NCBI GenBank assembly: GCA_024275195.1
Contig: JAJRZP010000093.1
Location: 1 to 48,628, forward strand
Reading direction: 5' to 3'
DNA from: Chloroflexota bacterium
GTDB lineage: Bacteria; Chloroflexota; Dehalococcoidia; Lucifugimonadales; Lucifugimonadaceae
DNA length: 48,628 nt
Position 1 is the first letter of the stretch, and every line of letters starts with the position of its first letter. The position numbers and the translations under genes are program-made. The notes under the pieces were generated by a model. That model worked only from the letters and a program-made list of their open reading frames with translations. It ran no database searches and had not been told where the DNA came from. Shown piece after piece: positions 3,168 through 8,646 of the stretch.

Positions 3168-3346
3168 GTTGCTGCTACAACGCTGCCATTTGGATACGGA
3201 GCGCCAGTGATAGTGAGTATTCGCGGTCGGTGCGGGCGAATTTTAGCATCGAGGTTGAGTCGAAAGCCGATGATGTCGCATCTAACGTATTACTGTCGGC
3301 ATATATCGTCGCAGCGGAGTACGAATATTAAAAATATGAGGTGCAG

Positions 3347-4429
3347 ATGCACAAGGTAGTTGGGATCGGATTAATAGTGCTTCTGATCGGTTACGTTCTC
3401 TGGATAGCGACCTCTGGTACATCGGTTGCACCCAGCGAGACTGTTGTGGTGAATTCAGATACTGCCCGAAACCCAACTGAGGAGCGGTCATTTGAAATCG
3501 TGACCGTCCTCGGTTTCGACGCGATTCCGTCGATCGAAAACCCGCGGTTCGTCAATCAGAGTATCGCCGACGAGACCTATGACCCCGATGAACTCGTGCT
3601 CGGAATCGAGATCGATGGCGACGCGCGGGCATACTCGGTTCCGGTTCTTAGCCGCCGCGAGATTGTGAACGATGTGGTCGCGGGTAAACCTGTGGCCATC
3701 ACATGGTGACCGCTTTGCTTTACTGGGATCGGGTATTCCAGAGAGATCAATGGTGTGGTTACAGAATTCGGTGTTTCAGGCAAGCTCATCATGAACGCCC
3801 TGGTGATGTATGACCGAGAGACTGAATCGCTATGGAGTCAGTTTTTGTCACGCGCAGTTAGTGGTGAATTATCGGGGACAGAACTCGAAACAATCCCTCT
3901 GACGATGACCACGTGGGAGAAGTGGAAGGAGATACAACCTGAGACGGTAGCACTGCGCAAGGGCAGCCGCATTCTCGACCCATATGCCGGGTACTACGCA
4001 GGTGGCTCAGCAGGTGTGATCGGTGAGGCGAATCAGGATGATCGTCTGCCAACCAAAGAACTGGTACTGGGTCTTGGGTTCGATTCGGAGCCCGTTGCAT
4101 TCCCACATTCGAAGCTTGAAGCAGAACCACTGATCCAGGTCACGAATGCCGGTGAGACAGCGGTCATCTACTACGACCCGACAACCAACACGGCACTTGC
4201 TTTCAGTACGGTTGTGGATGGGCAGGAACTCGATTTCGAGTTAGTCGAACAGGACGGTCGTGAATGGATGCAAGACACCCAGACGGGAACACTGTGGGTG
4301 CCATTCACGGGGCAGGCGGTCAATGGCGAGATGGCTGGGAAGGCACTTGATCGTCTTCATGCCGTAAACGCGTTCTGGTTCGCCTGGAGCGACTTTTATC
4401 CGAATACCGAAATTTGGGGGTTGGGATAG
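3347..4429 (+). CDS. DUF3179 family membrane-anchored protein with in-frame TGA (predicted selenoprotein)
   Basis: Two open segments lie in the same frame, separated only by the TGA at 3707-3709. Read through, they form one DUF3179 protein of about 360 residues. The ATG at 3347 follows GAGGTG. A hydrophobic segment (about residues 5-22) anchors the protein, with the domain outside the membrane. DUF3179 proteins carry a conserved (T)(Y/W)CPLC motif; here the segment reads ITW-TGA-PLCFTG, so selenocysteine would replace the first Cys and give a UxxC pair. Downstream homology continues without a gap: FGVSGKLIMNALVMYDRETESLWSQF, then TTWEKWK. A SECIS-like hairpin follows the TGA (3723-3741). Protein function is unknown; the motif suggests redox or metal chemistry. 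A nonsense mutation is less likely because the TGA falls exactly on the Cys column and the downstream half shows no decay. Confidence 0.88.
3723..3741 (+). promoter_or_regulatory. SECIS-like hairpin of the DUF3179 gene
   Basis: CTGGGAT (3723-3729) pairs with ATTCCAG (3735-3741), 7 bp including one G-T, around the loop CGGGT (3730-3734). The loop begins 20 nt after the TGA. This fits the bacterial SECIS rule as I know it: a short apical loop with G in its first two positions, about 16-37 nt from UGA. The same loop and distance occur in the peroxiredoxin gene. Confidence 0.7.
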
Positions 4430-7590: not shown

Positions 7591-8646
7591 TCAAGCCTGA
7601 ATTGTTACGACGCCCGGTGTGCCGTCGCTGGTAACCGTGCCGATAACAGACTTATAAAGTGTATTATTAGCAACTAGACTCTTTATAAGTGAGTTTGATC
7701 GTTCTTTGCTCACAGATATAAGCATTCCGCCAGACGTTTGAGCATCGGCAAGAATCATGAATTCAAGCTCTCCAATGCCATTCTCTAAAACTACCTTGCC
7801 TTCGAGTGCCTCCATGTTGCGAGCCGTACCACCTGAAACGGAGCCGCTCTGAGCAAGGTCGAGTACTCCGGGCAGTAACGGTATGTCTGACCAGTTCAAG
7901 GTTGCCGACGTACCGCTGGCTTTCATCATTTGTGAAAGGTGGCCGAGCAACCCGAACCCGGTTACGTCGGTCGCCGCGTTGACGCCGATCTCGATCATCG
8001 CGTCTGCTGCGCCCTTGTTGAGGGTTGCCATCGACTCCACAGCGGCATTGATCGAATCCGACGTTGCGGTTCCTGCCTTGCCAGCGGTAGTAATTATTCC
8101 TGAGCCGATTGCTTTGGTGAGAATCAAAACATCACCGGGTTGGGCGTTTGCGTTCGTGATCTGCTCACCGGGGGTGACGATTCCGGTCACTGCGAGACCA
8201 TATTTCGGCTCCCGATCATCGACGGTATGACCACCAATGATCAGAATTCCGGCTTCTTCTGCCTTCGCCTGCCCACCTTCGAGAATTTTGGCGATGACTT
8301 CCGGCCCAAGTTCTCTCGGGAAAGCAGCGATGTTCAGGGCGGTAATTGGTTTTCCGCCGACTGCGTAGATATCGCTCAGGGCGTTAGCCGCGGCGATCAG
8401 TCCGTAGTCGTAGGGATCGTCGACGATAGGCGCAAAGAAGTCGTTCGTGAGTACGAGAGCGACGCGATCATCTATCCGGTAGATGGCAGCGTCATCTCCG
8501 GTTTCGGTTCCAACCAGCACATTCGGGTCAGTGATGGTCGGTGTTGGCAGCCTGCCCAATACCTGGGCAAGTTCACTCGCGCTGAGCTTCCCAGCTCAAC
8601 CGGCGCAGGTAGCCAGTTCGGTTAGTCGTACAGGTTTATCGCTCAT
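7591..8646 (-). CDS. selD: Selenophosphate synthetase SelD, itself a predicted selenoprotein
   Basis: Makes selenophosphate from selenide and ATP, the Se donor for selenocysteine. From the ATG at 8646-8644 the N-terminus reads through to TGA at 8598-8596 (codon 17): the local peptide is LATCAG-U-AGKLSASELAQVLG. This is the position of the catalytic Cys17 of E. coli SelD, where selenocysteine is a known natural variant. The rest is a full AIRS-type synthase: TGDDAAIY, TNDFFAPIVDDPYDYG, AANALSDIYAVGG, GGHTVDDREPKYG, DVTGFGLLGHL and AQTSGGML. The total is 351 residues. A start downstream of the TGA would delete the catalytic segment. No selA, selB or selC lies in the window. A SECIS-like stem is noted separately. 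Confidence 0.95.
8551..8571 (-). promoter_or_regulatory. SECIS-like hairpin in selD
   Basis: In the minus-strand mRNA, CTTGCCCA pairs with TGGGCAGG (8 bp, one G-T) around the loop GGTAT. The loop begins 32 nt after the TGA, within the usual bacterial range, and starts with GGU as in the classic fdhF element. A competing fold (CTGGG with CCCAG closer to the TGA) is possible, so the exact structure is uncertain. Confidence 0.5.

Follow-up and report, generated by a model that had tools for sequence, protein, structure and literature searches.

Introduction

The DUF3179 family is already on record as a family of selenoproteins. The selenoprotein tables of two papers, PMC9312934 (2022; DUF3179, pfam11376) and PMC13188914 (2026; PF11376), list it with the motif UxxC/T, and both papers cite Zhang and Gladyshev 2007 (Olavius algarvensis symbiont) for it. 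Each table gives one example accession, and the table passages on the family mention no Chloroflexota member, paralogues or SECIS alignment. OS_HP1, a UxxC protein in PMC2398784, may at a guess also belong here. The thiol oxidoreductases of the UxxC type treated in that paper (Trx-like, Prx-like and DsbA-like) have this motif in common with DUF3179; unlike them, the DUF3179 protein studied here matches no other Pfam family at E 1 and yields a mainly beta model. As regards the organisms, relevant passages of PMC5649159 place SelA and SelB in sponge symbiont bins (in an SAR202 context) and a passage of PMC8318568 names Chloroflexi among the users of selenocysteine (Sec, U), while no paper linking Poribacteria with selenoproteins was found among open-licence full texts.

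In this study, we analysed a window of 48,628 nucleotides (the whole stretch of DNA under examination) from the genome of a marine Chloroflexota bacterium. The initial annotation of this DNA had read one of its genes as a DUF3179 selenoprotein and had suggested that the family might be new to selenoprotein biology. The gene has the same Pfam family and the same UxxC motif as the family in the published tables, and in two plasmid records the product is annotated as 'DUF3179 domain-containing (seleno)protein'; the family claim is therefore not new. The additions made here are U forms from Chloroflexota and from seven further named phyla, a covarying SECIS hairpin, the presence of three U copies in the source genome, and a tandem-duplicated domain whose second motif Cys has been lost in several relatives.

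Results

The gene in question occupies positions 3347..4429 of the forward strand, encodes 360 amino acids including U121 and ends with a TAG stop. A single internal TGA interrupts this frame, at codon 121 (3707..3709, forward strand) in the context AITW-U-PLCFTG, so read as selenocysteine within W-U-P-L-C. The TGC at 3716..3718 (forward strand) encodes Cys124, the second position of the UxxC motif and the sole ordinary Cys in the protein. Pfam analysis matched PF11376 over residues 58-354 (E 1e-88; 298 bits against a cut-off of 27), so that homology runs on past the TGA, and the CPLC-type motif of DUF3179 is present as UPLC. No other Pfam family was matched by the protein at E 1, and none of 63 DUF3179 members matched any NCBIfam model. 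GC content by codon position was similar upstream and downstream of codon 121; the remaining five frames of 3347-4429 contain 9 to 17 stops each; and the back-translated W-U-P-L-C pattern occurred once in the window and in none of 100 shuffles. Mechanical ORF calling breaks the gene at the TGA into 3341-3709 and 3755-4429, and annotation that is blind to Sec is thus likely to miss it. The gene is flanked by an SMC-like ATPase (25 bits, below the cut-off) and a phosphoribosyltransferase gene. Further along, on the reverse strand, 5850-6605 matches Lit, a lipoprotein intramolecular transacylase (PF07314, E 1.1e-28).

The source genome contains SelA (511 bits), a tRNA-Sec with a TCA anticodon, SelD and SelB, the last in two pieces. 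The N-terminal piece of selB (283 bits, over the cut-off) lies at the start of contig C96; the C-terminal one scores weakly (34 bits, below the cut-off) and sits close to the end of contig C14. These positions would fit one gene divided between two contigs. The selD gene (selenophosphate synthase) was located in the window at 7591..8646 on the reverse strand, with a proposed ATG start at 8646, an in-frame TGA (CAGUAGK) and a TGA stop; it is thus itself a selenoprotein gene, about 3 kb from the DUF3179 gene. Among the genomes searched, 46 (source genome included) had a listed TGA in a DUF3179 match, and in every one of these the TGA was confirmed at the motif in a copy. selA exceeded the cut-off in 41 of the 46, and the five genomes that had a TGA form and lacked selA were 61-82% complete. 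When only genomes at least 90% complete were considered (n=54), 31 had the TGA form and all 31 had selA; of the four lacking selA in this group, three had no DUF3179 gene and the fourth had DUF3179 without the TGA.

The initial annotation had placed the TGA on the first Cys of CPLC, with homology continuing beyond it, and the homologues agree with the PF11376 match in bearing this out. In a first set, 110 frames were reduced to 103 distinct domains, and the first motif column held U in 64, Cys in 37, Ser in one and a gap in one; because 60 of the loci had been chosen for having a TGA, 64 of 103 is not a frequency. The second Cys was present in 101 of 102 domains of this set. A second set, drawn from named records (the best 80 of 585 candidate loci), gave 81 domains with U in 33 and Cys in 48 at the same column. 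Both sets are biased towards forms resembling the DUF3179 of the window, and their counts are likewise not frequencies; in each, an in-frame UGA lies over a Cys that is conserved in homologues, as expected of bacterial selenoproteins. The same TGA was found again in the genus, the family and the order, and hence is not a sequencing error, nor does it mark an isolated pseudogene. Two loci look like decaying copies or assembly errors, namely L119, a U form carrying three extra in-frame TGAs, and L082 (genome G004), a CPLC form whose match contains a TGA away from the motif.

When the rows of both sets were examined together (95 U and 85 Cys rows, in which 5 shared contigs are counted twice), Trp preceded U in 72 of the 95 U forms and Phe or Tyr preceded Cys in 81 of the 85 Cys forms. 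C124 was retained in 93 of 95 U forms and in all 85 Cys forms; the two exceptions (L147 and L153) read UPLA. Near-invariant or invariant residues were D58, E105, N108, D109, D156, W163 and G173. Position 104 was His in 86/95 U and 81/85 Cys forms and is Arg in the window's protein, and E105 was Glu in 92/95 and 85/85, respectively. A second group of U forms (L003, L096, L113 and similar) mostly reads Y/W-U-T-L-C, and a long open frame precedes its domain. In the 13 domains from plasmid loci, the first position was always Cys, while the second was Cys in 7 and Thr in 6, the latter being CPLT copies on haloarchaeal plasmids (L240, L241, L244, L245, L246 and L247). These haloarchaeal forms thus keep the first-position Cys found elsewhere, and their second-position Thr agrees with the published UxxC/T notation of the tables. 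On the aligned sequences, the first motif position is the constant one, the Ser copy of the source genome excepted. That several relatives have Thr or Ala instead of the second Cys singles out the U position as the probable reactive one.

A candidate bacterial-type SECIS hairpin lies in the mRNA just 3' of the UGA, at 3723..3741 of the forward strand (stem 3723-3729/3735-3741, loop CGGGT at 3730-3734), starting 13 nt past the TGA codon. All 64 U rows of the first set were gapless over the 42 nt from the TGA, with the stem in alignment columns 17-23 and 29-35. Over the 62 distinct U rows, 83.4% of stem cells were paired and covariation was 0.412, compared with 0.153 in shuffled alignments (a value as high arose in none of 500) and no more than 0.142 when the register was slid. 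Two of five covariation measures went hardly or not beyond the shuffles and say little: pairs changed on both sides were matched by 22 of 500 shuffles and further pair types by 180 of 500. At the same place in the 37 Cys rows, 35.5% of cells were paired and covariation was 0.159, reached by 10 of 500 shuffles, so that Cys rows too stand slightly above most shuffles. With the register fixed, 30 of 33 U forms of the second set made 6 or more of the 7 pairs, versus 1 of 48 Cys forms; the figures were 30 of 33 and 9 of 48 when the register was free to slide by up to 6. After removal of five contigs taken to be already in the first set (L127, L128, L129, L130 and L141), 25 of 28 U forms still reached at least 6 of 7 pairs. 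RNAalifold predicted no pair and no consensus structure on the U alignment, Rfam reported nothing in the window at the gathering threshold, and the window's hairpin alone folds only slightly better than shuffles (z -1.62 for 25 nt, -0.55 for 42 nt). Covariation of the hairpin is a feature of the U forms, and the Cys forms have not preserved it. Cys forms (CPLC) share the domain and the column with U forms, and differ in having Cys for U, mostly Phe/Tyr ahead of the motif and no preserved hairpin.

The source genome itself had 6 DUF3179 matches in 5 genes, comprising three U copies with the TGA at the motif (contigs C68, C167 and C144) and a CPLC form on C96; at a further locus (L004, on C107) Ser and Thr replace both motif Cys (SPVT). 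The family was found in 63 of the 100 genomes searched, source genome included. The further U forms that the initial annotation had proposed to look for in marine Chloroflexota were recovered: the named U forms of the second set came from Chloroflexota (17), Poribacteria (9), an unassigned record (1) and, with one each, Acidobacteriota, Bacillota, Eiseniibacteriota, Fidelibacterota, Nitrospinota and Planctomycetota, as labelled in the records, which are mostly metagenome bins in which individual labels may be wrong. All 14 rows from Nitrososphaerota were Cys forms. A quick FastTree of 180 rows, after 4 of 184 were dropped (three shorter than 200 residues and one Ser form), called for a minimum of 8 changes between U and C. 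Phage records had no DUF3179 match at E 1e-5. Haloferax volcanii gave a match to the family.

A conserved operon of U forms was sought and rejected, as none of the 25 families listed (of 128) recurred in more than 4 of 93 neighbours of named U forms; the scan covered 93 of 122 listed neighbours, the other 29 (mostly near-identical Poribacteria and close-relative loci) having been omitted by hand. Domain fusions were rejected as well: nine long frames gave just a solute-binding match and a weak lyase-like match, which are likely adjacent genes joined through stop-to-stop reading. Among plasmid copies, 11 of 15 listed loci, from 27 matching records, were examined, and genes for dihydrolipoyl dehydrogenase, a TauE/SafE/TSUP exporter or Trx/redoxin/DsrE proteins lay within 4-5 kb in 8 of the 11 (7 of 10 haloarchaeal loci plus Thiothrix); loci H1, H6 and H10 had none of these neighbours. 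Such a gene was present in 1 of 25 control segments, each 9 kb long and drawn from five of these plasmids (Fisher p 1.3e-4 for the haloarchaeal 7/10), but because the neighbour terms were chosen after the loci had been inspected, and the gene tables are incomplete, the association is a lead. Its direction is towards the chemistry of sulfur or thiols.

The AlphaFold2 model of the protein was confident (mean pLDDT 92.5, pTM 0.86) and consists of an N-terminal helix followed by mostly beta structure. According to the model and to hydropathy (19-residue mean up to 2.51), residues 2-22 (3350..3412, forward strand) form a hydrophobic helix, a signal anchor or signal peptide, and the DUF3179 domain behind this one helix is predicted to be extracytoplasmic, in line with the setting that the initial annotation had given the UxxC pair. 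U121 ends strand 114-121, before a turn that is followed by strand 126-131. Moreover, the domain is duplicated: its first half (compared as residues 78-180; 3578..3886, forward strand) and its second half (residues 232-360; 4040..4426, forward strand) are homologous (hhalign probability 99.8), with the UxxC motif in the first half only. A thioredoxin fold finds no counterpart here, as there was no Trx Pfam match, one of 63 members gave a Redoxin match (E 0.16), and neither model had a Trx protein in its list of 50 PDB matches. In BFVD, the half-domain model resembled two uncharacterised proteins, A0A1V0SF28 and A0A1V0SD44, of Hokovirus and Indivirus (E 1.2e-3 and 3.3e-3).

Discussion

The window's DUF3179 gene almost certainly encodes a selenoprotein with Sec at codon 121, a reading on which all the comparative evidence, from the motif column and from the hairpin, agrees. 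By this reading, the UGA would be decoded as selenocysteine via SelB and tRNA-Sec under the direction of the hairpin, a step that the comparison supports, and the protein would be anchored in the membrane with its domain outside. U121 would then most likely be the reactive selenol, in the first of the two half-domains, just as Cys would be the reactive thiol of the Cys forms. In proteins that have Cys124, this residue would resolve the selenol by forming a selenenylsulfide; the Thr or Ala found at the second position in some relatives implies that a Cys there can be dispensed with. An extracytoplasmic domain for selenol/thiol redox or sulfur handling is the most likely reading of the function, at about even odds, and the evidence leans towards thiol/selenol or sulfur chemistry at the first motif position.

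The strongest competing explanation, which we consider improbable, is that U or Cys does not serve as a redox nucleophile and is instead a metal-selenolate/thiolate ligand; the metal would be Cu, Hg or an Fe-S cluster, and the site might sit on a Rieske-like beta scaffold. When both models were compared with the PDB, Rieske ferredoxins and NirD-type proteins came out best (full model, E 3.8e-3 with target TM up to 0.64; half-domain, E 0.3), and H104 and E105 are widely conserved. However, no PDB match of either model in Foldseek reached E 1e-3, and 11 Rieske domain profiles gave probabilities of 0.3 to 6.2% only, on which homology to Rieske domains was rejected. The best-scoring of these profile alignments involved the second half, and an alignment with a probability of 0.6% paired C121 with the first Cys of the CxH motif. 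Sequence searches found no solved relative at E 10. The window protein moreover contains neither the CxH nor the CxxH that would bind a cluster: C124 is the one Cys it has, its His residues are confined to positions 2, 254 and 338, and residue 104 is Arg. Of the 13 plasmid domains, 6 have Thr in place of the second Cys. The likeness to Rieske/NirD-type beta domains is thus one of fold only, and weak. Three relatives from the same order (G063, G066 and G067) each had 37 to 59 matches to Rieske domains.

That translation simply halts at the TGA and leaves the remainder as debris is highly improbable. The unexceptional stability of the hairpin as a single sequence and the three further TGAs of L119 could be taken in its favour, but 64 of 103 domains have their TGA at this very codon, the TGA recurs in genus, family and order, the downstream frame is intact with its codon-position GC kept, and the Sec machinery is present. 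The recurrent U/Cys column and this machinery led us to reject a pseudogene, a sequencing error and a changed code alike. A code in which TGA means Trp or Cys genome-wide is the least credible of all, as no supporting evidence was found, the genome has tRNA-Sec (TCA), selA, selD and selB pieces, the 11 window genes checked end in TGA (3), TAG (7) or TAA (1), and U/Cys alternation is tied to the hairpin.

A more specific and decidedly speculative proposal, which we rate as slightly less probable than a metal site, is that DUF3179 proteins are a new type of extracytoplasmic sulfur or redox carrier bearing a single selenol or a single thiol. Its scaffold would be a duplicated Rieske-like beta fold in which only one half holds the reactive residue and the second Cys is optional, and the Sec version would be in use among marine Chloroflexota, among Poribacteria and in several further phyla. 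Taken together, the data describe one uncharacterised domain in its Sec and Cys forms, a widely spread set that is supported by SECIS hairpins and in which both forms often occur within one genome, so that a comparison of U, Cys and CxxT forms can put the motif's role to the test.
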